Source: a virus | Strand: one strand, 5' to 3' | IMG/VR virus record: IMGVR_UViG_3300034198_014928 | Location: 1 to 24,007 of that record | DNA: 24,007 bases | In this document: piece after piece, positions 7,164 to 18,456 of the stretch | How positions within the stretch are numbered: the first letter of the stretch is position 1 | Layout: each line of letters begins with the position of its first letter | Notes under the pieces: model-generated | Database searches by the model: none | What the model saw: the letters and a program-made list of their open reading frames with translations, nothing else | Told to the model about the DNA's origin: nothing | Program-made: the position numbers and the translations under genes

Positions 7164-9830
7164 ATGGGAAACCTCAACGAGGCGGCCCGCGGACGCTGGC
7201 CTGGAATCCTTGCGTCCCTGGCCGGCTTGTCCGACCAGCAGCTGTCAGACGTTCACCAGCCCTGCCCCCTGTGCGGCGGCGAGGACCGCTACCGCTTCGA
7301 TGACATCGATGGCTCCGGCTCTTGGTTCTGCAACCGCTGCGGCGGCCGCAACCAGACCGGCGGCGCCGGCACCGGCATGGACATGCTCATGCGACGCACC
7401 GGCTGGTCTTTCAAGGACGCAGCCACCCGCGTCGAGCAGCACCTGGGCATCGCCCCGCAAACCGTGCAGGCCCAGGCCAAGGGCCGCCCCGCTCGCACCC
7501 CTGACCGCCCCCCAGCTGACGCACCACCCCCGCCCCTGGACGGTGCTGCTGCTCAGTGGCCCTACACCGACAGCAGCGGCGCCACCCTGTTCTGGATCCA
7601 GCGGGTCAACCTGCGGAAGTCCGGCGGCAAGCTGTTCCTCCACCGCACCTGGATCGATGGCGCCTGGCATCGCCCCAGCAAGAACGACGCCTTCACCTCC
7701 GAGTGGCCCGCACCTCGGCCGCCCTATGGCCTGCACCTGCTAGCCGAGCGGCCTCAGGCCAGTGTGCTCATCGTCGAGGGTGAGGGCACTGCGGACGCCG
7801 CAAGGGCCCTCTTCCCGAACGTGGTCATCCTCGCATGGTGCGGCGGCGCCGGGGGCGTGCTCCGCACTGACTGGTCTGCCCTGGTCGGCCGACGGGTGGC
7901 CCTGTGGCCCGACAACGACGCCCCCGGCCTGCGCACCATGGCCAAGCTTGCGCAGCACCTGCAGGGGCTCGCGCAGGCCCCGACCGTGCGGATCGTGCTG
8001 CCGCCGGCCGATGCGCCTGAGAAGTGGGACCTGGCCGATGCCACCGACTGGACCCCAGCCCATGCCGTCGCGCACGTCAAGGCCAGCACCACCGCCGACG
8101 TCCAGGCCTTCATCGATGCTCACCTGGCACCGGCGCAGCCGGAGCTGGCGCCAACACCCCCCACGCCCGAAGACCCGCAGCCCGCACCCGTCCCCTCCGG
8201 CACCGGCGGTCACTTTCGTTGCCTGGGCTTCGATGGTGATGACTTCTTCTACCTCCCCAGTGCCACCGGGCAGGTCGTGCGCCTCACTGCAGCGCAGCAC
8301 GGCGGCTCCGGCCTGCTTCGCCTGGCTCCCCTGCCGTTCTGGGAAACGCTCTACCCCGGCGGCCGCGGCGGCGTGAACTGGAATGCTGCCATGAGCTCGC
8401 TCTACCAGCAGCAGGCCACGGTCGGCGTCTACGACCCTGATCGCATCCGCGGCCGCGGCGCATGGCGCGACAACGGACGGGTCGTGTTCCACCTGGGCGA
8501 TCGCCTCATCGTGGACGGGCAGGCGCACAGCGTCCTGTCCCCACCGAAGACCCGCTACTTCTACGAGCAGGCCAGGCAGCTCGACGGCCCATCCGATACC
8601 CCCATGGACGACGACACCGCGGCCACCATCCGCGCCATCGCAGAGCGGTTCCGCTGGGAGGTGCCGGCAACCTTTCACCTCCTGCTCGGCTGGATTGTCC
8701 TGGCCCCTGTCTGCGGTGCCCTGGCCTGGCGCCCCCACATCTGGATCACCGGTGGTGCAGGCACCGGCAAGACCACCATCCTCAAGCTGTTCATCCACCC
8801 CCTGCTCGGCGGCATCGTGCAGTCGGCCACCGGTGGCACCACCGAGGCCGGCCTCCGCGGCACCCTCAAGTCCGACGCCATCCCCGTCGTATTTGATGAG
8901 TTCGAACAGAACGAAGCCAAGGACAAGACCATCGTCCAGAACGTCCTGGCCCTGGCCCGGATTGCTAGTTCCGAGGGCGGCAAGATCTACAAGGGCACCA
9001 CCTCAGGCGGAGCCAACTCGTTCGAGATTCGCAGCATGTTCTGCGTCAGCTCGATCAACGTTTCCCTGGTGCAGAAGGCCGACATTGATCGCTTCTGCGT
9101 CCTGGGCCTGCGCAACGCCGGCATGGATAAAGAAGAGTGGCGCGAGTTCCATACCGACATCACCAACGCCTGCACCATTGACGCCGGCCGGGCACTCATT
9201 GCCCGCACCGTGGGGCAGATCCCCACCATCACCGAAAACTCCCGCGTCCTGGCGCAGGCCCTGGGGCGCCGCTTTGGCCAGCGGTTCGGCGATCAACATG
9301 GCACCCTGCTCGCTGGTGCATGGTCCCTTGAGCCCGGCGGCGGCGGCCTGCTGTCTCTGCAGCAGGCGGAGCAGTGGCTCGACCAGATGGATTGGGAGCA
9401 GGCCCAGACCGACTCCACCGATGCCGATGAGGTGAAGTGCCGCGACACCATCCTGCAGGGCCTGGTCCGCATCGGTGGCGGCATGGAGGCCAGCATCGGC
9501 GAGCTCGTGCAGGCTGTGGCCTATCAGCAGATGCTGCACGAGGTGACCTCCTGGTCTGCCCTGGAGCCGGTGCTGGCCCGCCATGGGCTCAAGGTCTACC
9601 GGCCCGGGACCAGGCTGCCGGACAAGGAGCTGACCGACGGCTACTGGCTGGCCGTCAGCAACACGAACCTCCAGCTAAGGCAGGCCCTGCGCGACACCCC
9701 CTGGGCCAATGGCAGCCACAAGAGCAGCCTGCGACGCCTGCCGGGTGCACTGGTGCCGCGGAACCCGGTCCACCTGGGTTCGACGTCCAATCGGGTGACG
9801 CTGATCCCCTTGCCGGACCCAAGCCCTTGA
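7164..9830 (+). CDS. Primase-helicase fusion: zinc finger, TOPRIM and DUF927-type ATPase
   Basis: This 888-residue protein is the likely replication initiator, priming and unwinding phage DNA. Residues 30-62 form a primase zinc domain (CPLCGGEDRYRF ... WFCNRCGG, Cys 34, 37, 56, 59). Residues 200-256 form a TOPRIM domain with VLIVEGEGTADAA supplying the catalytic Glu and ALWPDNDAPG the Asp pair. A Pro-rich linker (about 322-346) leads to a DUF927/superfamily 3-like ATPase with Walker A GGAGTGKT (530-537) and Walker B IPVVFDEFE (573-581). The rest is helical. The order matches P4-alpha-like and DUF927 replication proteins of phages and plasmids. The start at 7164 follows the previous gene by six bases, and a terminator hairpin and a repeat-rich candidate origin follow. 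Confidence 0.92.
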   Translation: MGNLNEAARGRWPGILASLAGLSDQQLSDVHQPCPLCGGEDRYRFDDIDGSGSWFCNRCGGRNQTGGAGTGMDMLMRRTGWSFKDAATRVEQHLGIAPQTVQAQAKGRPARTPDRPPADAPPPPLDGAAAQWPYTDSSGATLFWIQRVNLRKSGGKLFLHRTWIDGAWHRPSKNDAFTSEWPAPRPPYGLHLLAERPQASVLIVEGEGTADAARALFPNVVILAWCGGAGGVLRTDWSALVGRRVALWPDNDAPGLRTMAKLAQHLQGLAQAPTVRIVLPPADAPEKWDLADATDWTPAHAVAHVKASTTADVQAFIDAHLAPAQPELAPTPPTPEDPQPAPVPSGTGGHFRCLGFDGDDFFYLPSATGQVVRLTAAQHGGSGLLRLAPLPFWETLYPGGRGGVNWNAAMSSLYQQQATVGVYDPDRIRGRGAWRDNGRVVFHLGDRLIVDGQAHSVLSPPKTRYFYEQARQLDGPSDTPMDDDTAATIRAIAERFRWEVPATFHLLLGWIVLAPVCGALAWRPHIWITGGAGTGKTTILKLFIHPLLGGIVQSATGGTTEAGLRGTLKSDAIPVVFDEFEQNEAKDKTIVQNVLALARIASSEGGKIYKGTTSGGANSFEIRSMFCVSSINVSLVQKADIDRFCVLGLRNAGMDKEEWREFHTDITNACTIDAGRALIARTVGQIPTITENSRVLAQALGRRFGQRFGDQHGTLLAGAWSLEPGGGGLLSLQQAEQWLDQMDWEQAQTDSTDADEVKCRDTILQGLVRIGGGMEASIGELVQAVAYQQMLHEVTSWSALEPVLARHGLKVYRPGTRLPDKELTDGYWLAVSNTNLQLRQALRDTPWANGSHKSSLRRLPGALVPRNPVHLGSTSNRVTLIPLPDPSP

Positions 9831-9857
9831 TTCAAACGCCCCACCAGGCCGCCCGAC

Positions 9858-9897
9858 AGCCCCGCAACCCTTGGCACGACTGGGGTTTCGGGGCTTT
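9858..9897 (+). terminator. Hairpin terminator after the primase-helicase gene
   Basis: AGCCCCG (9858-9864) pairs with CGGGGCT (9889-9895), and inside it AACCC (9866-9870) pairs with GGGTT (9883-9887), giving a 12-bp interrupted stem followed by TTTC. Its place 28 bases after the primase-helicase stop fits the end of the replication transcript. The T-run is short, so termination may be partial. Confidence 0.6.
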
Positions 9898-10103
9898 CTA
9901 ACGATCTAACGCAAAACGCCAAATGAAACACACACACCCCCTATTAACCCCTCTACCCCCCTGATCCCCTTTTACCCCCTCTACCCTATGTATCTTTATT
10001 TCTTGTAATTATGGTTAGGTTGTTAGGGGCGGGGTCAAAGCCGTTGCCAGCACAAGGGTTTTCGATCTAACGCTCGGCCTTACGCTTTGCCTGACACCGT
10101 TAG
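9898..10103. other. Candidate replication origin: CTAAC/GTTAG iterons around a pyrimidine-rich, AT-rich tract
   Basis: CTAAC occurs at 9898, 9906 and 10067, and its complement GTTAG at 10014, 10022 and 10099. The first two and the middle two are tandem pairs with an 8-base period, in opposite orientation, flanking about 100 bases. The 11-mer CGATCTAACGC is repeated exactly at 9902 and 10063, and CCCCTCTACCC at 9948 and 9976. Between them, 9985-10020 is AT-rich in an otherwise GC-rich genome and could melt easily. It lies next to the primase-helicase gene. The same tract could instead hold the promoter for 10257-10967. It fills most of the 426-base non-coding stretch 9831-10256. Confidence 0.5.
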
Positions 10104-10173
10104 GTGGCTGCCCCGTTGCCGTAATCGGGGCCCAGGCGGCCCGGCAAGGCCTCTGAACCCCGTCCAGGCCACT

Positions 10174-10192
10174 ACCCCCTTGATCGGGGGGT
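10174..10192 (+). repeat. Short inverted repeat upstream of gene 10257
   Basis: ACCCCC (10174-10179) and GGGGGGT (10186-10192) can pair around TTGATC, leaving one unpaired G. No T-run follows. It lies 65 bases before the next start codon and may be part of its leader or an unrelated C/G run. Confidence 0.3.
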
Positions 10193-10256
10193 CACAGGCC
10201 CGTTACAGGCGACCAGGGGCTGCGCCTACGCTGTTCCTGGCAAGGGGGCCCCGGTC

Positions 10257-10967
10257 ATGCTGCGCATCGACATCACCGACACCATCAAGCCCGCTATCGC
10301 CAAGCTCGGGCAGCTCACTGACGTCCAGCTCCGCTACGTCGTTGCCAGTGCCATGACCGAGGCGGGCAAGGCGGCGCAGGAAAGCCTCAAGCAGTCCATG
10401 CCCCGCTACATCGACAGGCCCAACCCCTGGACAATGGGCTCCACCTTCGTCCAGTTCGCCAAGGCCAGCGACCTCACCGTCACCGTGGGCATCCGCGATC
10501 AGGACCGCCGCGGCCGCACCGGTGCCGGGAAGTACCTCGCTCCCCTCATCACTGGCGGGCCGCCCCGTCCCAAGGGCGCTGACCTGTCCGCTTCCGCACT
10601 GGCCGGCACCCGCGGCGTCCTGGTCCCGGCTCGTGGGGCCGTTCGCCTCAACCAGTACGGCAACGTCAGCCTCTCCAACTACGCGAAGATCCTGGGCAGT
10701 GCCCGGGCCAAGGACGCCGGCATCTACGTCGCTCCCGTCAAGGCAGGCCTCTCCACGAAGGCCGTGTTCCAGCGGAAGACCGGCTTCCTCGGGCGCACCT
10801 CCACCCTCGATACCACCACTCGGCGGCTGTTCACCATCGACCCCACCCCCAAGGTGCGGACCGCACGATTCCCCGTGACGCGAATCCTGGAGGACGGCTT
10901 CCGAGAGGCGTTCCCCAACCTGCTCCGCACTGGCCTCCAGGCCGAGCTGGCCAGGCACTTCCGCTGA
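10257..10967 (+). CDS. Putative phage virion or tail-assembly protein (236 aa)
   Basis: The ATG at 10257 follows AAGGGGG with nine bases between. The N-terminus (MLRIDITDTIKPAIAKLGQL) continues with a helix SAMTEAGKAAQESLKQSMPRYI, as in minor tail / gpZ- or gp10-like proteins. The middle has GKYLAPLITGGPPRPKGADL, SASALAGTRGVLVPARGAVR and LNQYGNVSLSNYAKILG, a pattern I recall from phage proteins annotated as hypothetical or minor tail. The C-terminus (FPVTRILEDGFREAFPNLLRTGLQAELARHF) looks like an assembly helix. It is isolated, flanked by non-coding regions with hairpins, away from the other virion genes. The structural call is inference; that it is coding is well supported. Confidence 0.55.
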   Translation: MLRIDITDTIKPAIAKLGQLTDVQLRYVVASAMTEAGKAAQESLKQSMPRYIDRPNPWTMGSTFVQFAKASDLTVTVGIRDQDRRGRTGAGKYLAPLITGGPPRPKGADLSASALAGTRGVLVPARGAVRLNQYGNVSLSNYAKILGSARAKDAGIYVAPVKAGLSTKAVFQRKTGFLGRTSTLDTTTRRLFTIDPTPKVRTARFPVTRILEDGFREAFPNLLRTGLQAELARHFR

Positions 10968-10995
10968 CCCTCGCTACCCTGCCCCGGGAGCGACT

Positions 10996-11031
10996 GGGGG
11001 GGGCTTCGTTGGCACGGGGGGAGCCCCCCCC
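10996..11031 (+). terminator. GC hairpin downstream of gene 10257
   Basis: GGGGGGGGCT (10996-11005) and AGCCCCCCCC (11022-11031) form a perfect 10-bp stem with a 16-base loop, 28 bases after the stop codon at 10967. The following bases are TCTCTCTG, pyrimidine-rich but not a T-run. It probably marks the 3' end of the upstream transcript and insulates the cassette. Confidence 0.5.
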
Positions 11032-11209
11032 TCTCTCTGCTCGTCGGCCAGACGCCTTCCGGTAGAGGTGAACTGCGACGGCCCAGATCCCTTCTGCCGG
11101 AAGCGATCTGAGAGATCGAGGCCGAGGTACTCTCCAGAGAAAAGGCCGATGGTTGTTTGGCAGCCCCGATCTTTGGCTAGCGCCAGGCCTGCAAATCGGT
11201 TCACCAGTT

Positions 11210-11228
11210 GATTCTGAGAATCATTCTC
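11210..11228. promoter_or_regulatory. Fur/Zur-box-like operator upstream of the deazaguanine cassette
   Basis: The site reads GATTCTGAGAATCATTCTC and matches the classical Fur box GATAATGATAATCATTATC at 15 of 19 positions. It contains the perfect palindrome CTGAGAAT-C-ATTCTCAG (11214-11230), with the 7-1-7 architecture of FUR-family sites. It overlaps the spacer of a weak candidate promoter (TTGATT N17 TAACGT) and lies 56 bases before the parB-like start. A phage repressor could also use such a palindrome. Confidence 0.5.
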
Positions 11229-11283
11229 AGTAACGTGGCGCCACCTCTGGCCCTATCCTTCGGGCCGGCAAGTAACGCCGCAG

Positions 11284-11889
11284 ATGTCCGAGGAAGAACA
11301 GGGACCAGACCTCACGGTCAGCATGGCCAAGCGGATCGAGCTCTGGCCCGTTGACCGCCTGGTGCCCTATGCCAAGAACAGCCGCCTCCACAACGATGCG
11401 CAGGTGGCTCAAATAGCCGCCTCCATCACGGAATTTGGCTTCACGAACCCGATCTTGGTCGATAGTTCCGACGGGATCGTTGCTGGTCATGGCCGCCTGG
11501 CTGCTGCTCGCGAGTTGGGGCTGCAAACGGTGCCGGTTGTGGTGCTGGATCACCTCAGCGATCGGCAGCGGCGGGCCTACGTCATTGCGGATAACAAGCT
11601 GGCACTAAATGCCAGCTGGGACGTGGACGTGCTGGCCGGTGAGATCGAGGCCCTGCGCGATGACGGCTTTGACCTCGATCTTGTGGGCTTCACAGAGGCT
11701 GAGCTGGAGGGCCTGTTCAAGGACGGGTGGGACTCCGACATGGAGGCCATCGATAAGATCGAGGCCAAGGACAGCACAGCCAAGGGCAAGCTGACCATCA
11801 GCTTCAACGAGTGGGACCGCGAGCAGGTGCGGGAGGCGGTGACAAACCTGATCGACAGCCTGGGGCTGGAGGGGGTGGAGGTTGGCTGA
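11284..11889 (+). CDS. ParB/sulfiredoxin-fold protein, first gene of the modification cassette
   Basis: This 201-residue protein has a ParB-like N-terminal domain: IELWPVDRLVPYAKNSRLHN, then VAQIAASITEFGFTNPILVD, then the nucleotide-binding GIVAGHGRLAAARELG and a YVIADNKLALNASWD segment. In phages this form often sits beside DNA-modifying enzymes. The C-terminal 75 residues are acidic and have no recognised domain. Here it is followed without a gap by dpdA, whose TTG start lies inside its last codons. It may bring the modification enzyme to DNA. In bacterial dpd clusters, from memory, a ParB-like DpdB helps DpdA. No SD is evident before this gene. Segregation is unlikely, as there is no ParA. 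Confidence 0.85.
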   Translation: MSEEEQGPDLTVSMAKRIELWPVDRLVPYAKNSRLHNDAQVAQIAASITEFGFTNPILVDSSDGIVAGHGRLAAARELGLQTVPVVVLDHLSDRQRRAYVIADNKLALNASWDVDVLAGEIEALRDDGFDLDLVGFTEAELEGLFKDGWDSDMEAIDKIEAKDSTAKGKLTISFNEWDREQVREAVTNLIDSLGLEGVEVG

Positions 11890-12757
11890 CAAGCTCAACA
11901 TCCTTGTCGCCTACCCCTACTTCTCAGAAGGGATCAAGGCCTTCCTGTCCGAGCGCGACCCCAGCACCTTTCGCCTGATCGTGGACTCCGGCGCATTCAC
12001 CGCCTGGAACACCGGCGCCGAGGTAACCATGGAGGGTTACACGAAATTCCTGAAAGGCATTCCCGATCACTGGGACTGGCGGGCGGTGCAGCTGGACGTC
12101 TACGGCGACCCTGAGGGCACCTATGCCAACTGGAAGCGAATGCTCGACATGGGGTGGCGCGACATCATGCCGGTTTTCACCCGTGGCGAGAGCTTTGACC
12201 GCTTGGAGGAGTTCTACCAGGCTACCGACTACATCATGTTTGGCGGCATTGCCTTTGGTGGTGAGAACAAGAACTACATCAAGTTCTTCGCAGAGAAGAA
12301 CGGTGGCCGGCGGGTGCACTGGCTGGGCTTCGTCAACATGCCGTTCATCAAGCACTACCGGCCCGAGTCGGTGGACAGCAGCAGCGTGACCAGTGCGCAG
12401 CGCTACGGCTCGATCGTCTACTACAAGGGGCACGGCGAGCTGAAGACCCTGCAGAAGCTGGACTTTGCCAAGCGGCCGCCTCAGCAGTTCCTGCTGGAGT
12501 GCGAGCGGCGGGGCTTCACGATGGAAGAACTGCGCCGCCTGGGCAGCAACCGGGCATGGACCGGGGCAGTGCGCATCCCTGATTCCAATGACTACCGGGG
12601 GTTTGCCAGCTTTGTCACCTACACCCACCACGTCTGGAGGGGCATCGAGGTAGAGCGCAACCTGGGCACGAAGGTCTACCTGGCCTTCGCTACCGAGGGT
12701 GACATGGCAGGTGCTTTTCACGCCTACGATTTCATGAACCAAAGAGGCCGGCTCTGA
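11882..12757 (+). CDS. dpdA: DpdA-like DNA guanine transglycosylase (TGT superfamily)
   Basis: It is predicted to exchange guanine in DNA for a 7-deazaguanine base, the key DNA step of the cassette. The start is a TTG at 11882 with GGAGG at 11868-11872, nine bases away; it overlaps the parB-like stop. In 291 residues the TGT-like (beta/alpha)8 pattern is visible: LIVDSGAFTAWNTG with Asp35-Ser-Gly, VQLDVYGDPE with Asp72, IMPVFTRGE, YIMFGGIAFGG (glycine-rich base pocket) and PESVDSSSVTSAQRYG with Asp165, the probable nucleophile region. No Cys-rich zinc site of tRNA TGT enzymes is seen, as is usual in phage DpdA. Its neighbours make the substrate. The exact subfamily cannot be set here. Confidence 0.85.
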   Translation: MADKLNILVAYPYFSEGIKAFLSERDPSTFRLIVDSGAFTAWNTGAEVTMEGYTKFLKGIPDHWDWRAVQLDVYGDPEGTYANWKRMLDMGWRDIMPVFTRGESFDRLEEFYQATDYIMFGGIAFGGENKNYIKFFAEKNGGRRVHWLGFVNMPFIKHYRPESVDSSSVTSAQRYGSIVYYKGHGELKTLQKLDFAKRPPQQFLLECERRGFTMEELRRLGSNRAWTGAVRIPDSNDYRGFASFVTYTHHVWRGIEVERNLGTKVYLAFATEGDMAGAFHAYDFMNQRGRL

Positions 12758-13971
12758 TGTGCAGCATCTTCGGCGCCTTCGGTGAGCACGTGAACCGGAA
12801 CGCCCTGGCGATCATTCGCTGCCAGGCAATGGACCGGGGGCGTGACGGGGGGCGACAGGAAACTTTCACCCTGGGTCGTCGCAAGGCAATGATCGGTCAC
12901 TGGCGTGCCACCCCAGCAACGGAGGCCACCGGTGCGCTGAGCCAGCCCTATGGGGGCATCGTGCACAACGGCACCATCGCCAATGACGTGGAGCTGGGCA
13001 ACCCGGCCGGGGCGGTGGACAGCATGGTGCTGGAGCATGTGCTGGATCGCAGCAACCTCAAGTCCCTGGTGCAGAGCCTGGGGCAGGTGCGGGGGAGCTA
13101 CGCGATGGCAGTGGTAGGCGACGACAGCTTGTTTCTGGCGACCAACTACAAGCCGATCTACCTGCTACGCCTGGTCGATGCGTTCTACTTCAGCAGCATG
13201 GAGCGCCACCTGCTGCCCCTATGCGTCACGGGGGTGCGGCCGCAACGCCTGCAGCCCTACAGCGCGATCGACCTGGTGACGCTTGAGGTGGCCAACATCC
13301 CGCGGGAGGACAGCCGGCGGGCGCTGGCAATCTGCAGCTCTGGCCTGGACAGCACGACCGCGGCGTATCAGCTGCGGGCCGAGGGCTGGGACGTAACGCT
13401 CCTTCATTTCACCTACGGCTGCCGGGCAGAAACACGGGAGGTGCAGCGCATCCGGCAGATCGGTGAGCGCATGGGGGCCCCGGTGGTGGTGCTGCCCATC
13501 GACTACAGCCAGTTCCGTGGGCAGAGCCCGCTGTTTGGCGACCAGGTAATTGCCAGTGGCGCTGCAGGGGCCGAGTTTGCCCATGAATGGGTGCCAGCTC
13601 GAAACCTGGTGTTGATCGCCCATGCAGTCGCATACGCCGAGGCCAATGGGTTCGGCGCGGTGGCACTGGGGAACAACCTGGAGGAGGGCGGCGCCTACCC
13701 CGACAACGAGGAGGAGTTCACGCACCTGCTGGACCAGGTGCTGGACTACGCCGTGCACGATGGCGGCCGGGTGCGGCTGCTGGCGCCGGTGGGCAAGCTC
13801 ATGAAGCACGAAATCGTCGAGCTGGGGCTCAAGCTGGGGGTGCCCTACGAGCTGACCTGGTCTTGCTACCGGGCCGGCGAGGTGCATTGCGGCAACTGCG
13901 GCCCCTGCTTCATGCGCCGCGAAGCCTTCCGGCGCAATGGCGTCACAGATCCCACAGAGTACGAGGCATGA
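12757..13971 (+). CDS. queC: Gat-QueC fusion: class II glutamine amidotransferase plus preQ0 synthase
   Basis: This 404-residue protein joins two enzymes. Residues 1-180 are a class II glutamine amidotransferase, with the nucleophile Cys2 right after the start (MCSIFGAFG) and the glutamine-binding HNGTIAN (70-76). Residues 188-404 are QueC: PP-loop SSGLDST (194-200), VPARN (279-283) and a zinc site of Cys370, 378, 381 and 384 ending CGPCFMRREAF. QueC makes preQ0 from CDG using ATP and ammonia. The added amidotransferase is known from archaea and from phages such as 9g, where it is tied to archaeosine-type G+ formation. The start overlaps the dpdA stop as TGATG, and the stop overlaps folE. Confidence 0.95.
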   Translation: MCSIFGAFGEHVNRNALAIIRCQAMDRGRDGGRQETFTLGRRKAMIGHWRATPATEATGALSQPYGGIVHNGTIANDVELGNPAGAVDSMVLEHVLDRSNLKSLVQSLGQVRGSYAMAVVGDDSLFLATNYKPIYLLRLVDAFYFSSMERHLLPLCVTGVRPQRLQPYSAIDLVTLEVANIPREDSRRALAICSSGLDSTTAAYQLRAEGWDVTLLHFTYGCRAETREVQRIRQIGERMGAPVVVLPIDYSQFRGQSPLFGDQVIASGAAGAEFAHEWVPARNLVLIAHAVAYAEANGFGAVALGNNLEEGGAYPDNEEEFTHLLDQVLDYAVHDGGRVRLLAPVGKLMKHEIVELGLKLGVPYELTWSCYRAGEVHCGNCGPCFMRREAFRRNGVTDPTEYEA

Positions 13972-14639
13972 CCGACTCCATTTCCGAGATCATCCGGGGG
14001 CGCCTACAGGCTGCCGGTGCACCCTTCCACGCCAACGACAACATCGCGGAGCACCTGCTCCCGGGCGAGCTCGAGCTGCTGCAGCTGGAGGTTGAGCAGC
14101 GGGTCGAGGCCATGCTGCGCAGCCTGGTGATCGACACCGACAACGATCACAACACTCAGGGCACCGCCAGGCGGGTGGCCAAGATGTTCTTGAGGGAGGT
14201 GTTCGCAGGCCGCTACCACGAGCCCCCATCGATCACCGACTTCCCAAACGCCAAAGAGCTTGACCAGATCTACTCTGTGGGACCGATCACGGTGCGCAGC
14301 GCCTGCAGCCACCACCTCGTCCCCATCCTGGGGAGGTGCTGGGTTGGCATCAAGCCCAGCGATCGGGTGATCGGGCTGTCGAAGTTTAACCGCCTTGCCG
14401 AGTGGGTCTTCAGCCGCCCTCACATCCAAGAGGAAGCGGTCATGATCCTGGCGGACGAGATCGAACGGCTGGTCAACCCTGCCGGCGTCATTGTGATCGT
14501 CCAGGCTCAGCACTACTGCATGAAATGGCGGGGGGTGCGAGAGCCCGACACCAGCATGGTGACGAGCGTTGTGCGGGGTGAGTTCCGCGACGACCCCCAC
14601 ATGAAAGCCGAGTTCCTTCAGCTCATCGGGCTCAAATGA
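13968..14639 (+). CDS. folE: GTP cyclohydrolase I
   Basis: This enzyme opens the pathway, converting GTP to dihydroneopterin triphosphate. The ATG at 13968 overlaps the gat-queC stop as ATGA; the same frame is open far upstream, but those residues are antisense-like filler over queC. In 223 residues it has the type IA zinc site, Cys113-x-His115-His116 in TVRSACSHHLVPI and Cys184 in AQHYCMKWRGVREP, plus the active-site GLSKFNRLAEWVFSRPHIQEEA. Length is normal. A phage copy avoids dependence on host folate flux. FolE zinc enzymes are replaced under Zur control in many bacteria, which bears on the Fur-like site upstream. Confidence 0.95.
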   Translation: MTDSISEIIRGRLQAAGAPFHANDNIAEHLLPGELELLQLEVEQRVEAMLRSLVIDTDNDHNTQGTARRVAKMFLREVFAGRYHEPPSITDFPNAKELDQIYSVGPITVRSACSHHLVPILGRCWVGIKPSDRVIGLSKFNRLAEWVFSRPHIQEEAVMILADEIERLVNPAGVIVIVQAQHYCMKWRGVREPDTSMVTSVVRGEFRDDPHMKAEFLQLIGLK

Positions 14640-15085
14640 CCTACGCCAGCACGAAGACATGGGGCCACGACATCGGCCTCAGCGCCTGCTTCAGGCAGTG
14701 GCGCAGCACTCACAGCCACTGCCGGTTCTTGCACGGCTACGCCCTGGCGGTGCGGCTGGAGTTTGAGGCGGCCACGCTGGACGACCGGAACTGGGTCGTG
14801 GACTTCGGTGGCCTGAAGGATCTGAAGCGCCAGCTGGAGGCCACTTTCGACCACAAGACGGTCGTTGCCCAGGATGACCCCGAGCTGGACTGGTTCCAAG
14901 AGGGGCAGCGCCGGGGCCTGCTGGACCTGGTGATTGTCGAGGCCGTGGGCTGCGAGCGGTTTGCTGAGCTGGTTTGGAACATGGGGCGGGTCTGGCTGCA
15001 AGAGCAAGGCCTGGCGTCCAGGATCAGGCTGGCCATGGTCGAGGTACGGGAGCACGGCGCCAACTCCGCCATCTACCGACCGTGA
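14636..15085 (+). CDS. queD: QueD-family 6-carboxytetrahydropterin synthase, variant metal site
   Basis: It should convert dihydroneopterin triphosphate to 6-carboxytetrahydropterin. In 149 residues it keeps the catalytic Cys29, the LHG His33, WVVDFGGLKDLKRQLE, the FDHK catalytic Asp-His and the late EVREHGANSAIY. Aligned by eye with the E. coli enzyme (AAH, then C, then LHGH), the first and third zinc His become Cys18 (LSAC) and Tyr35 (LHGY). I recall a proteobacterial and phage QueD-like group with the same LS.CFRQW and LHGYAL motifs, so this is probably a subfamily feature, not decay. It is coupled by ATGA to folE and by GTGA to the next gene. Confidence 0.9.
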   Translation: MTYASTKTWGHDIGLSACFRQWRSTHSHCRFLHGYALAVRLEFEAATLDDRNWVVDFGGLKDLKRQLEATFDHKTVVAQDDPELDWFQEGQRRGLLDLVIVEAVGCERFAELVWNMGRVWLQEQGLASRIRLAMVEVREHGANSAIYRP

Positions 15086-15462
15086 GAGTGCTCACCTGGG
15101 ACGAGTTCGATGCCGCGGTGGCCAAGATCGCGGCGAGGGTAGGGGGCAAGGTGACAGGGGTCTACGGGCTGCCCCGCGGGGGCCTGCCGCTGGCGGTGGC
15201 ACTCAGTCACCGCCTGGGGGTGCCCATGCTGCAGGCGCCAGAACCCGGCGCCCTGGTCGTGGACGACGTCTACGAAACCGGCCGGACCCTTGCCCCCTTC
15301 CGTGACGCCCCTTGGCTCGTGGCCGTCTGGATCAGCAAGGCCGAGCCAGCATGGTGGCAGGCGGCCGAGGTGGTCTCCAGCCGCGAATGGCTGGTGTTCC
15401 CTTGGGAGAACCCTGCCACTGCCCACAACGATGAGGAGACCTACCGTGCTTCGCGTGAATGA
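15082..15462 (+). CDS. Type I phosphoribosyltransferase inside the deazaguanine cassette
   Basis: The GTG at 15082 overlaps the queD stop as GTGA and gives 126 residues. The PRPP-binding signature is clear: ALVVDDVYETGRTL (VVDD..xTG.T), preceded by GVYGLPRGGLPLAVALSHRLG, and the C-terminal WLVFPWE seen in xanthine/guanine-type enzymes. It would join a purine-like base to ribose 5-phosphate. Its role here is open: turning the free preQ0 or G+ base into a nucleotide, or salvaging the guanine that DpdA releases from DNA. It overlaps queE by 17 bases and so is part of the operon. Confidence 0.88.
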   Translation: MRVLTWDEFDAAVAKIAARVGGKVTGVYGLPRGGLPLAVALSHRLGVPMLQAPEPGALVVDDVYETGRTLAPFRDAPWLVAVWISKAEPAWWQAAEVVSSREWLVFPWENPATAHNDEETYRASRE

Positions 15463-16099
15463 GATGTTTCCCACCATCCAGGGGGAAGCGGGCTACACCG
15501 GGACGCCAAGCGTCTTCATCCGGCTGCAGGGGTGCCCGGTGGGCTGCAGCTGGTGCGACACGAAACACACCTGGGGCACAAACCCCCGACATGAGGTGTC
15601 GATTGCGGAGATGCTGGCCAAGGTGGACAACGCCCCAACATGGGCATCGATGAACGACCAGCAGGTGATCGAAGCGGCGCAGGCGATGAAGCGCCGGCAC
15701 TTTGTTATCACCGGCGGCGAGCCCTGCACCTACGACCTCTTCTTGCTCTCCGCTGGCCTTGTCACGCTGGGGTCTGTGCAGGTGGAGACAAGCGGCACCC
15801 ATGAGGTTCGTGTTGCGCCTGGCACCTGGGTCACAGTCAGCCCGAAGGTGGGCATGGCCGGGGGCCTGGAGGTGCGCCAGGACGCAATGGAGCGGGCCAA
15901 CGAGATCAAGATGCCGGTGGCCGAGCAGGGGGACATTGACCGCCTGCGGCAGCTGCTGGAGAAAACGGGGGTGCGCAAATCGGTCTGGCTGCAACCGGTG
16001 AGCCAGGGCGAGGCCGCGACAGAGTTGTGCATGGCAACATGTGCCCGCTACGGATGGCGCCTTAGCCTCCAGACCCACAAGTACGCCGGGCTCCGGTGA
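15446..16099 (+). CDS. queE: 7-carboxy-7-deazaguanine synthase (radical SAM)
   Basis: This enzyme converts 6-carboxytetrahydropterin to 7-carboxy-7-deazaguanine. I start it at the GTG at 15446, with GAGGAG at 15433-15438 seven bases before, giving 217 residues that begin MLRVNEMFPTIQGEAGYTG, the standard QueE opening. The radical SAM cluster is C30-x3-C34-x2-C37 in GCPVGCSWCDTKHTW, and GGEP follows at 90-93. Length is typical. It is the last gene of the cassette, ending four bases before the terminase small subunit start, so modification and packaging genes may share a transcript. Confidence 0.95.
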   Translation: MLRVNEMFPTIQGEAGYTGTPSVFIRLQGCPVGCSWCDTKHTWGTNPRHEVSIAEMLAKVDNAPTWASMNDQQVIEAAQAMKRRHFVITGGEPCTYDLFLLSAGLVTLGSVQVETSGTHEVRVAPGTWVTVSPKVGMAGGLEVRQDAMERANEIKMPVAEQGDIDRLRQLLEKTGVRKSVWLQPVSQGEAATELCMATCARYGWRLSLQTHKYAGLR

Positions 16100-16103
16100 A
16101 TGA

Positions 16104-16595
16104 ATGAATGCCGCCCAGTACGCCAGGCACCGCGGAATCTCCAAGGTTCAGGTCGGGAAATACATTGCCGAAGGCAAGATCACGGCCCGGCGGGTGGGGC
16201 GCAGCTGGGACATTGATGCAGATGTGGCAGACCGCGAGCTGGAGGCCAGCCGGTCGCCTGATCGTGGGGGGCGCAACGGTGGCCCTGACGGGTTGGGCGG
16301 CGGCGTGCCGAACGCCGGCGTCAGCTTTGCCCATGCCAGGGCCGTCCGTGAGCAGTATGCGGCCCGCATTCTGCGCCTGGAGTTTGAGCAGCGCAGCGGC
16401 CGACTGGTCGAGAAGAACGAGCTCAAGCTCCGACTGGCGAAGCTGCACCTGGCAGCCCGGGACAACCTGCGCTCGATTCCCGATCGAGTGGCTCCGGTGG
16501 TGGCCGCCGAGACGGACCCGGCCAAGATTCACGCCCTTCTGCTAAAAGAGATCGGCCAGGCGCTGGAGGGCCTGCAGGGATTTGACTGGCGTTGA
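16104..16595 (+). CDS. Terminase small subunit, Nu1-like
   Basis: This 163-residue protein probably recognises the packaging site in phage DNA. Residues 1-50 carry a winged helix-turn-helix like lambda Nu1 (YARHRGISKVQVGKYIAEGKI then RRVGRSWDID). A Gly/Asn-rich linker (50-70) leads to a long charged helix (ARAVREQYAARILRLEFEQRSGRLV) and a terminal domain (KIHALLLKEIGQALEGL), as in other Nu1-type proteins. It overlaps the large terminase gene by 14 bases, the expected order. The run TGAATGAATGAATG at its start offers three ATGs; only the one at 16104 reads this frame. Confidence 0.88.
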   Translation: MNAAQYARHRGISKVQVGKYIAEGKITARRVGRSWDIDADVADRELEASRSPDRGGRNGGPDGLGGGVPNAGVSFAHARAVREQYAARILRLEFEQRSGRLVEKNELKLRLAKLHLAARDNLRSIPDRVAPVVAAETDPAKIHALLLKEIGQALEGLQGFDWR

Positions 16596-18456
16596 CGAGC
16601 TGCTGCTGGCGTGCATCGAGGCCCTGCAGTTCGAAGCAGAGCTGACCGTTAGCGAGTGGGCGGACACGCACCGTGTCCTCAGCGGCAGAGCCAGCAGCGA
16701 GCCGGGGCCCTGGCGAACGGACCGCACGCCATACCTGCGCGAGCCGATGGACTGCCTGAGCACCACGAGCCCGGTTCAGCGGGTGGTGCTGCAGTTTGGG
16801 GCGCAGCTGGGCAAGACCGAGAGCGGCGCAAACTGGCTGGGCTACGTCATCCACCACGCGCCGGGCCCGATGCTGATGGTGCAGCCGACCGTGGACATGG
16901 CCAAGCGCCTGTCGAAGCAGCGGCTCGAAAGCCTCATCACTGAAACGTCGGTCTTGAGCGAGTTAATTGCACCGGCAAGAAGTAGAGATTCGGGAAACAC
17001 AATGTTTTCTAAAGAGTTTCCGGGAGGTATAATGATCCTCACCGGTGCAAACTCTGCAACGGGCTTGCGTTCTTCTCCGTGTCGTTACATCTTCCTCGAT
17101 GAGGTCGATGCGTTTCCTCACGACGTGGACGGCGAGGGCGACCCCGTGACCTTGGCCGAGAGGCGGAGCACGACCTTCAGCCGGCGGAAGATCCTGATGA
17201 CATCCACTCCCACCATCAAGGATCTGAGCCGCATTGAGACGGAGTACCTGCTCAGCGATCAGCGGCGGTTCTTCGTGCCCTGCCCCTGCTGTGGTCACCC
17301 TCAGTGGCTGCAGTGGGGGCAGATGAAGTGGGAAAACAACGAGCCCGAGACGGCCCAGTACGAGTGCGAAAGCTGCCGCGAGCGGTTCAGCGAACAGCAC
17401 AAGACCGCCATGCTGGCCCGCGGGCAGTGGCTGCCCACCGCACCGGGCGATGGTGGCAAGACGGCAGGCTTTCACTTGAGCAGCCTCTACAGCCCACTGG
17501 GGTGGAAAAGCTGGCCCGAGATTGTCGAGGACTTCCTCAAGAGCAAGGGCGACGCGCCGCGGCTGAAGACCTGGGTCAACACCGTGCTCGCTGAAACTTG
17601 GGAAGAGGACTACGCGGCCAAGGTTGGCGCCGACACCCTGCTGGAGCGGGTCGAGTTCTACGAACCGCAGGTTGTGCCCGAGCGGGCGGTGGCGGTCACC
17701 GCAGGGGTGGACGTGCAAGACAATCGCCTGGCGGTGAGCGTCTGGGCCTGGGGACGCGAGGAGGAGGGGTGGCTCATCGATCACCAGGAGATCTACGGCG
17801 ACCCGGCAACCCCGCACCTCTGGAAGCAGCTGGACGAGCTGCTGCTGCGCCCCTTCAACCACGAGATTGGCCAGCCCCTGCGGCCCGACGTGGTGGCAAT
17901 CGATTCAGGGGGGCATTTTACAGCAGAGGTCTATCAATACGCGAGGGAACGGCAGGGCAAGGGCGTCATCGCCATCAAGGGCCAGAGCCAGCGGGGCAAA
18001 CCGCCCCTCGGCAAGCCGACCAAGGTGGACATCAACTGGCGTGGCCGTGCGCTAAAGAAGGGCGCCGAGGTGTTCCCAGTGGGCGGCGACACCATCAAGA
18101 ACACCCTGTTTGCCAGGCTGCGCCACAACGACCCGGGCCCTGGGTTTCTGCACTTCCACCACAAGCTCGACGGCTCTTACTTCGATCAGCTGACGGCAGA
18201 GAAGCAGGTGGTGCGGTTCGTCAAGGGTTTTCCTCACCGCGAGTGGGTGAAGAAACCCTCGGCCCGCAACGAGGCTCTGGACTGCATGGTCTACGCCTAT
18301 GCGGCTCTGCACCGGCTCTATCAGCGCTACGACCGGCGCACGATCTGGGATCAGCTGGAGAAGCGGGCGGAGCCTGCTGCAGCAGAGCAGGGCGGCATCG
18401 CGCCGCTAAGATCCAAGAAGCCGGCCCAGGGCCGCAACTTTGCGACGAGCTGGTGA
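16582..18456 (+). CDS. Terminase large subunit, lambda GpA family
   Basis: This 624-residue motor and nuclease cuts concatemers and pumps DNA into the prohead. The start is a TTG at 16582; GGAGGG lies upstream and conserved sequence (SEWADTHRVLSGRASSEPGPWRT) begins too early for a later start. Motifs: Walker A-like GAQLGKTESG (73-82), Walker B YIFLDEVDAF (169-178), TSTPT coupling motif (207-211), a zinc knuckle CPCCGHP and CESCRERF, and RNase H-like nuclease blocks GVDVQDNRLAVSVWAWG, VAIDSGGHFT and the late NEALDCMVYAYAA. Length matches GpA. Codons for residues 128-165 differ in base composition from the rest (see finding). Confidence 0.97.
   Translation: MTGVDELLLACIEALQFEAELTVSEWADTHRVLSGRASSEPGPWRTDRTPYLREPMDCLSTTSPVQRVVLQFGAQLGKTESGANWLGYVIHHAPGPMLMVQPTVDMAKRLSKQRLESLITETSVLSELIAPARSRDSGNTMFSKEFPGGIMILTGANSATGLRSSPCRYIFLDEVDAFPHDVDGEGDPVTLAERRSTTFSRRKILMTSTPTIKDLSRIETEYLLSDQRRFFVPCPCCGHPQWLQWGQMKWENNEPETAQYECESCRERFSEQHKTAMLARGQWLPTAPGDGGKTAGFHLSSLYSPLGWKSWPEIVEDFLKSKGDAPRLKTWVNTVLAETWEEDYAAKVGADTLLERVEFYEPQVVPERAVAVTAGVDVQDNRLAVSVWAWGREEEGWLIDHQEIYGDPATPHLWKQLDELLLRPFNHEIGQPLRPDVVAIDSGGHFTAEVYQYARERQGKGVIAIKGQSQRGKPPLGKPTKVDINWRGRALKKGAEVFPVGGDTIKNTLFARLRHNDPGPGFLHFHHKLDGSYFDQLTAEKQVVRFVKGFPHREWVKKPSARNEALDCMVYAYAALHRLYQRYDRRTIWDQLEKRAEPAAAEQGGIAPLRSKKPAQGRNFATSW
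16960..17090. other. Low-GC segment inside the large terminase gene
   Basis: Bases 16981-17040 are 24/60 G+C (40 percent), against clearly higher values in the flanking gene. In frame, the segment uses AGT, AGA, ACA, TCT, AAA, GGA and ATA, codons that are rare around it. It lies just before the Walker B motif. It may mark a recombination or conversion tract. It also contains GGAGG followed by TATAATG, which looks like regulatory sequence by chance. Confidence 0.5.

Follow-up and report, generated by a model that had tools for sequence, protein, structure and literature searches.

A putative 2'-deoxyarchaeosine cassette on a viral contig, with a ParB-domain protein and a purine phosphoribosyltransferase as apparently overlooked parts

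The closest described counterparts of the system considered here are the 2'-deoxyarchaeosine (dG+) pathways of phage 9g and similar phages (Queuovirinae, Nonagvirus). In published work on 9g, Gat-QueC, a glutamine amidotransferase (GAT) domain fused to QueC, the synthase of 7-cyano-7-deazaguanine (preQ0), together with the DNA-guanine transglycosylase DpdA, gave dG+ and resistance to EcoRI. Replacement of QueC by Gat-QueC goes with dG+, folE, queD and queE from 9g complement mutants of E. coli, and in E. coli carrying 9g DpdA and Gat-QueC, dG+ accounted for as much as 18 ± 10% of Gs, or for 5.5 and 9.2% of Gs without the host queC (PMC6884629, in the available parts of that report, as in all citations of it below). 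Here, we analyzed viral DNA of 24,007 bases (IMG/VR record IMGVR_UViG_3300034198_014928, the entire entry, hereafter “the window”), in which seven genes at positions 11284–16099 form a predicted dG+ cassette that shares with 9g FolE, QueD, QueE, DpdA and a single QueC fused to Gat. A first-pass annotation, made from the letters of this DNA, had described seven coupled genes and predicted dG+ from Gat-QueC and DpdA by reference to 9g. The coupling is confirmed, as all seven genes are on the + strand with every frame open and neighbors overlapping by 1–17 bases, and the ParB-fold protein and phosphoribosyltransferase (PRT), which it listed without assigning them a role, are present. A dG+ cassette is known in kind and the complete cassette is not itself new, but PRT and ParB look like recurring components of phage base-exchange systems that have been overlooked.

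Comparison with described systems brings out these two parts. In the 12.6 kb of 9g examined, neither a PRT nor a ParB hit was present, the 9g DpdA (~24% identical to that of the window) is followed by clamp and DNA polymerase genes, whereas the cassette of the window precedes the terminase genes. The actinobacteriophages CRB2, Bipper and Megan have ParB, DpdA and preQ0 genes followed by the terminase, and Megan also has Gat-QueC; they differ in that no Mycobacterium or Microbacterium record was among the PRT matches and in that their DpdA proteins fall in other tree branches. Nipunavirus NP1, Vibrio phage VpKK5 and Stenotrophomonas phage Bhz54 carry a PRT of the window's type in the cassette, but within the FolE product, and no ParB hit stood beside DpdA in the DNA examined. 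Phages related to the window through their terminase have a ParB domain at the same locus, before the small terminase subunit gene (TerS), either with a methyltransferase or with Mom, but not with DpdA and a base-synthesis pathway. Lastly, the bacterial Dpd system pairs a DpdA of the tRNA-guanine transglycosylase (TGT) fold with a ParB-superfamily partner, the ParB-like ATPase DpdB (available parts of PMC12839542); DpdB is required there for the insertion of preQ0. The window differs in that domain searches found no DpdC or restriction gene among its seven genes, and its likeness to DpdB, known here by description, concerns the ParB domain alone.

The locus as a whole is best explained, in our view and with moderate confidence, as a phage-borne DNA hypermodification cassette that joins dG+ synthesis to a ParB partner and PRT salvage. 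FolE, a QueD-like protein, QueE and the QueC half of Gat-QueC would convert GTP to preQ0; DpdA would remove guanines from phage DNA and put the deazaguanine base in their place; and the Gat half, acting before or after insertion, would use glutamine to turn the nitrile into the G+ formamidine. ParB, constant at the locus, would load or target the modifying enzyme as its DNA-side partner. PRT would join the guanine expelled by DpdA to phosphoribosyl pyrophosphate (PRPP) to form GMP, recovering the purine that FolE consumes: each DpdA exchange would release one guanine, and the GMP would return to the pool drained by FolE. The modified DNA would resist host restriction. We consider dG+ the likely main product and the cassette probably active; the roles of ParB as an adaptor and of PRT as a guanine salvage enzyme are each evenly balanced in our assessment. 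Our analyses provided gene content, gene order, folds, motifs, phylogenetic position and the associations of ParB and PRT, and from these we infer activity in this phage, the role of ParB and the substrate of PRT.

The window's DpdA matched phrog_887 (9.2e-30) and phrog_7068 (1.2e-9) in PHROGs. It had no match in Pfam or NCBIfam up to E 0.1, phmmer found no relative in the PDB, and no PADLOC model matched it. VIA-align of its AlphaFold2 model (mean predicted local distance difference test score, pLDDT, 89) returned TGT, archaeal TGT (arcTGT) or the DNA preQ0 insertase DpdA (7ui4) in all 50 rows listed (Z 13.2–13.7 over 228–241 residues, root-mean-square deviation (rmsd) 3.2–3.8), and on this model the protein has a TGT-like fold. 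Foldseek alone gave the model no match at E 0.001 or better, which weighs against the assignment. F39, D72, H146, D165 and S167 were invariant in a 15-row DpdA alignment that included 9g, and H146 aligns with His 196 of 9g DpdA. DpdA2 proteins (Vibrio phage nt-1 type) are without the His found at 9g position 196 (PMC6884629); the presence of H146 therefore sets the window's protein apart from DpdA2, which is known here by its published description, not by sequence.

In a DpdA tree of 47 rows, 15 bacterial TGTs lay on one side of a branch with 99/97 support and the window's DpdA lay outside them, so that the clustering with tRNA TGTs named in the first-pass annotation as the contrary outcome did not occur. 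The window's protein fell within a 15-row group of IMG/VR sequences only (support 100/100) that held none of the 13 isolate rows; the root of this tree was set on the TGTs by choice, bacterial DpdA is absent from it, and its immuto row is very long. Using tblastn, we found DpdA hits in 165 records of isolated phages, with coverage of the protein below 80% in each (identity among the 40 listed was at most 32.8%), and no isolate with a close relative among 50,697 phage records. A scan of viral contigs yielded 35 DpdA loci, the nearest 77% identical. By sequence and modeled fold this is a predicted phage DpdA of the 9g type, apart from tRNA TGTs, and new in belonging to a lineage for which the collection searched holds no isolate.

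These data also bear on whether the genes might raise queuosine in host tRNA instead of modifying DNA. The PHROGs families matched by DpdA are labeled queuine tRNA-ribosyltransferase, and a tRNA role has been considered for phages without DpdA (PMC6884629). Against this stand the position of the window's DpdA outside the 15 bacterial TGTs, for which we dropped this candidate, and its location after a ParB gene of a kind otherwise seen ahead of enzymes that modify DNA. In addition, the zinc site of tRNA TGTs is built from three cysteines, and the window's DpdA cannot carry such a site because it has a single cysteine in the whole protein. We consider a tRNA function very improbable.

Gat-QueC matched PF06508 (QueC, 6.4e-51, above the cut-off) and phrog_10428 (5.1e-108), and it aligned at full length with Gat-QueC of 9g-type phages at 41–42% identity. 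Its matches to GATase_6 and GATase_7 were under their cut-offs, as was that to NCBIfam QueC (145.3 bits vs. 150.3). Among the profile searches that the first-pass annotation had proposed, QueC thus passed PF06508, the amidotransferase families stayed below threshold, and DpdA was recognized by phrog families only. Across six phage enzymes including 9g, the Gat part has invariant Cys2, R50, H70-N71-G72-T73 and D88, and the QueC part invariant S194, G196, D198 and S199 (SxGxDS) and C370, C378, C381 and C384. The fusion first proposed is therefore upheld, and the sequence identifies Gat-QueC as a class II GAT domain with an N-terminal Cys joined to a QueC with its pyrophosphatase loop (PP-loop) and four zinc cysteines. 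No second QueC was found in the cassette, that is, it has one QueC protein, as in 9g.

It is nevertheless conceivable, though unlikely, that DpdA modifies DNA with preQ0 (dPreQ0) or 7-amido-7-deazaguanine (dADG) as the main product, the compact Gat being weak or inactive and Gat-QueC serving mainly as a QueC. Up to the QueC PP-loop, the Gat part of the window falls short of its 9g counterpart by ~65 residues, and phage products have departed from gene-content predictions (PMC6884629). Two published observations weigh against our prediction: phage Dp-1, whose genes place it among the dG+ phages, makes the 7-aminomethyl-7-deazaguanine nucleoside dPreQ1, so that gene content can mislead, and when an E. 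coli queC mutant received 9g gat-queC, its tRNA queuosine was not restored (PMC6884629). The invariance of the Gat residues listed above in all six phage enzymes, however, counts against a product other than dG+, and dG+ remains the best prediction.

Profiles support FolE (PF01227 8.6e-45, above the Pfam cut-off, although under that of NCBIfam) and QueE (TIGR04322 1.7e-83, 279.3 bits vs. an equivalog cut-off of 200), as first named. FolE has C113, H115, H116, H182 and C184 invariant in a seven-row alignment, and CxxxCxxC of QueE can be read directly from its sequence. QueC, as noted, occurs only within Gat-QueC, and the protein first called QueD scored as a member of the 6-pyruvoyl-tetrahydropterin synthase (PTPS) family only (PF01242 3e-16; phrog_2389 9.2e-41; 41.4 bits vs. 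a QueD cut-off of 89.25). It keeps the equivalents of the catalytic C27, D70 and H71 of E. coli QueD. The zinc triad of E. coli QueD is H16/H31/H33; the equivalents here are F/H/Y, and this loss of two of three zinc histidines counts against our reading of the cassette. The cassette might need host help (e.g., a host QueD) or be partly decayed, and the altered metal site and the contig probably being a fragment favor that view. Conversely, the seven frames are all open and overlapping, and the F/Y variant was found in 41 of the 82 QueD hits of the loci examined and in HD01, Iggy, immuto and phiST. This wide distribution makes decay unlikely, and we regard dependence on the host or partial decay as rather improbable. 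The classical zinc set occurred in 37 of the 82 hits, which include the window, its copy L001 and near-copies, and in 9g, NP1, Megan, CRB2 and Bipper; four hits were mixed. Despite its F/H/Y site, the QueD-like protein may work like QueD. Of the self-sufficiency suggested in the first-pass annotation, a gene for every step is present; independence from host queuosine precursors is only an inference, given the altered QueD-like site and the probably fragmentary contig.

The PRT scored just below the cut-off of PF00156 (1.1e-5, 25.2 bits vs. 26.3). Its AlphaFold2 model (pLDDT 91) had xanthine-guanine phosphoribosyltransferases (XGPRT) and purine PRTs as top fold matches (Foldseek E as low as 1.8e-7; VIA-align Z 16.8 with rmsd 5.1 and Z 16.2 with rmsd 2.3). 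Motifs of XGPRT are RGG, the pyrophosphate loop, DDxxxxGxT, the PRPP loop, and W(x)nPW, the purine pocket. In an eight-row alignment, RGG, DD..G.T and W...PW of the window's protein were invariant, E. coli Gpt and two FolE-fused forms having them too, and sequence and model together predict a purine phosphoribosyltransferase of the XGPRT type.

To judge how regularly PRT accompanies the preQ0 genes, we considered the best 80 of at least 183 confirmed loci (at least 600 stretches) from a scan of viral contigs by PRT sequence alone; some are near-copies and L015, L068 and L072, at least, lie on contigs also in the DpdA scan. At least one of FolE, QueD, QueE and QueC was in the flank examined of 68 of these loci, three or more in 59, and PRT was fused to FolE in 12. 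Gene order in the cassettes varies widely while PRT persists. As controls, none of 19 loci found with the window's RecT held preQ0 genes, and one of 80 found with the large terminase subunit (TerL) did, namely the contig of L002; the TerL control is weak because 34 of its 80 loci have <1.1 kb before TerL. Among isolates, the FolE product of NP1, VpKK5 and Bhz54 has PRT as its N-terminal part, and PRT adjoins FolE in immuto. The fusion may have arisen once: many independent fusions were rejected since the PRT tree needs two changes, compatible with one origin.

DpdA was sought in 37 chosen PRT records (35 viral and two isolates), 14 of them also with a second query. Twenty records were at least 40 kb long; of the 17 among them with FolE, QueD or QueE, 14 gave a DpdA match, two of these matches being weak (4.5e-8 and 2.8e-6) and one, in the record of L094, having internal stops. 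In the remaining three long records neither FolE nor DpdA was found. A search with the phrog_7068 profile gave no match in any genome, controls included, and so shows little. Several counts weigh against PRT as a salvage partner of DpdA. Twelve of the 80 PRT loci had none of the four preQ0 genes in the flank examined, and PRT was missing from 8 of 29 DpdA loci with a judgeable cassette; hence the link of PRT to the cassette is not strict. DpdA was not found in three of the 17 long cassette-bearing records (L099, L124 and phiST), where guanine salvage does not explain PRT, and we dropped a strict PRT–DpdA link.

Cellulophaga phage phiST (L040, L126), deposited as complete, has FolE, QueD, QueE and PRT; DpdA, TGT and QueC were sought in it and none was found. 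Its PRT lies near a ribonucleotide reductase gene, ~19 kb from FolE, and by its gene content phiST is a candidate for a DpdA-independent route. Such a route could in principle operate in the window as well, with PRT converting the 7-deazaguanine base to a nucleotide and then to modified dGTP, and DpdA being secondary. A modified-dGTP route has been suggested for some phages without DpdA (PMC6884629), and the phiST gene set is in keeping with it. The window, however, has a DpdA with the invariant residues and a PRT that keeps the XGPRT tryptophan motif, DpdA accompanied PRT in most long cassette-bearing records, and the distance between PRT and FolE in phiST is itself a point against; we judge this route quite improbable for the window. 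It is likewise improbable that PRT, instead of salvaging guanine, joins ribose phosphate to a 7-deazaguanine such as preQ0, the nucleotide ending as modified dGTP. If it did so, there would be two loading routes, DpdA exchange and direct incorporation, and phiST-like phages would have the second only. With a guanine-type PRT recurring next to FolE or joined to it, what becomes of the guanine that DpdA expels is a testable question. A literature search, made mostly without subscription papers, returned nothing joining DpdA, phage, 7-deazaguanine and phosphoribosyltransferase; the term “phosphoribosyl” is absent from the available parts of PMC6884629, and the PRTases in those of PMC7824862 belong to NAD and Ter systems. 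PRT looks like an overlooked recurring part of phage deazaguanine cassettes.

The ParB protein matched PF02195 (1.1e-7, above the cut-off) and, over the N-terminal part of each model, PADLOC MTase_II (2.5e-46) and the DNA methyltransferase family phrog_498 (4.1e-54). ParB stood directly upstream of DpdA in 33 of the 35 viral DpdA loci; of the two exceptions, L029 starts within DpdA, and in L036 ParB comes directly after DpdA. ParB is also directly upstream of DpdA, in a cassette before the terminase, in CRB2, Bipper (one small gene between) and Megan, and for CRB2 it has been noted ahead of DpdA, with ORF1 suggested to be a DpdB-like ParB (available parts of PMC6392294). Microbacterium phage Megan (L044:670-2543) has two DpdA genes side by side behind ParB.

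The TerL scan, of which we used the best 80 of 598 confirmed loci (L175–L177 look like near-copies), placed this gene in a wider setting. ParB was upstream of TerS in all 24 nearest TerL relatives (L168–L191). In 18 of these it was fused to an N6/N4 methylase (six recognized by Pfam, 12 by a DPPY motif), and it was followed by a C5 methylase in two, by Mom (PF25680) in two and by a deazaguanine cassette in one (L190, the contig of L002); one had no module call. Among these 24 ParB domains, 14 shared 67–74% identity with the window's ParB, mostly over its residues 8–147, and the other 10 shared 51–64%. Two points weigh against a functional partnership. No ParB was seen in the other 56 TerL loci, of which 34 have <1.1 kb before TerL and 22 have more, and ParB also occupies this position ahead of enzymes that might work without a partner, so that it may be linked by position only. 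ParB domains are known to accompany phage DNA-modifying enzymes with an unclear function (available parts of PMC12783734), and a limited literature search gave no description of whole chemistries swapped beside a constant ParB at one locus. By sequence, ParB appears to be a constant partner beside exchangeable modules (methylase, Mom, deazaguanine), and these natural swaps within one phage lineage offer a way to test what ParB domains do in the modification of phage DNA.

Table 1. Features of the cassette and its upstream region in the window.
Feature	Coordinates	Strand	Basis
17-bp perfect palindrome	11214..11230		read directly, upstream of cassette
ParB/Srx N-terminal-domain protein, 201 aa	11284..11889	+	PF02195 above cut-off
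DpdA, predicted DNA-guanine transglycosylase, 291 aa, TTG start	11882..12757	+	phrog_887, fold, motifs
Gat-QueC, class II glutamine amidotransferase fused to preQ0 synthase, 404 aa	12757..13971	+	PF06508, phrog_10428
FolE, GTP cyclohydrolase I, 223 aa	13968..14639	+	PF01227, invariant residues
QueD-like PTPS-family protein, variant metal site, 149 aa	14636..15085	+	PF01242, phrog_2389
Predicted XGPRT-type purine PRT, 126 aa, GTG start	15082..15462	+	AlphaFold2 fold matches, Gpt-like motifs
QueE, radical-SAM 7-carboxy-7-deazaguanine synthase, 217 aa, GTG start	15446..16099	+	TIGR04322, CxxxCxxC

The 35 DpdA loci also differed in the tailoring enzyme. Gat-QueC was present in four, QueF (identified by PF14489, 4.6e-33) took its place in 27, and four had neither in the DNA examined, two of these being truncated within DpdA. 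An acetyltransferase gene, assigned by Gcn5-related N-acetyltransferase (GNAT) families, was found in 15 of the 27 QueF-type loci, sitting between DpdA and QueC (L004, L005, L013–L015, L021, L023–L027, L031 and others; e.g., L013:2017-2867), and had four distant hits among isolates. This gene content suggests that cassettes with QueF and GNAT make N-acylated dPreQ1 in DNA, of which a limited literature search returned no report. In the QueC of L008, L009, L010, L012 and L016 (e.g., L008:5262-6014), the zinc cysteines are lost and the PP-loop is kept. These proteins have the motif SHTAYDG...G[KR]DHA and are encoded beside QueF, without GNAT.

Two DNA elements were noted near ParB and TerS. The core pattern of the palindrome (Table 1) occurs once in the window and in 0 of 100 shuffles, and the palindrome, 15–17 bp long, recurs upstream of TerS in L199:4186-4200, L206:36-50 and L214:7328-7342, three terminase relatives without a ParB hit. 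The palindrome is possibly an operator or an element of the packaging region. The motif GGGTCCYTCC lies ahead of ParB or TerS in 13 of the 31 sequences examined (L168:6141, L189:6123, L199:4213 and 10 more terminase relatives), which included the window, itself without the motif, and nowhere else in 650,962 bases on both strands. As this motif resembles a lambda-like cos region, the modification module would occupy the left terminus of the genome as packaged.

The record is probably a genome fragment. A minor tail gene flanks the cassette on the left and terminase genes on the right, TerS starting at 16104. Farther left are genes for single-stranded DNA-binding protein, RecT, exonuclease VIII, helicase, endonuclease and primase, and to the right, after TerS and TerL, those for a head-tail joining protein, portal (named by its position in the gene order of Synechococcus phage S-LBS1) and capsid. 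The order of the cassette genes recurs, whole or mostly, in other viral contigs and is therefore not chance. A nucleotide search of 9000–18000 against isolated phages gave no match, a tRNA search of the window found none, and no Rfam family reached its gathering score. The best matches listed for the capsid protein are Synechococcus siphophages (~50% identity), and those for TerL comprise such phages together with phages of other hosts (47–51% identity), a weak hint at a cyanobacterial host. The genome scan yielded a single relative in a cellular genome, an assembly of an uncultured Granulosicoccus (L046:9408-13651), with the order ParB-DpdA-QueF-QueC-FolE-QueD-QueE; it is possibly a prophage.

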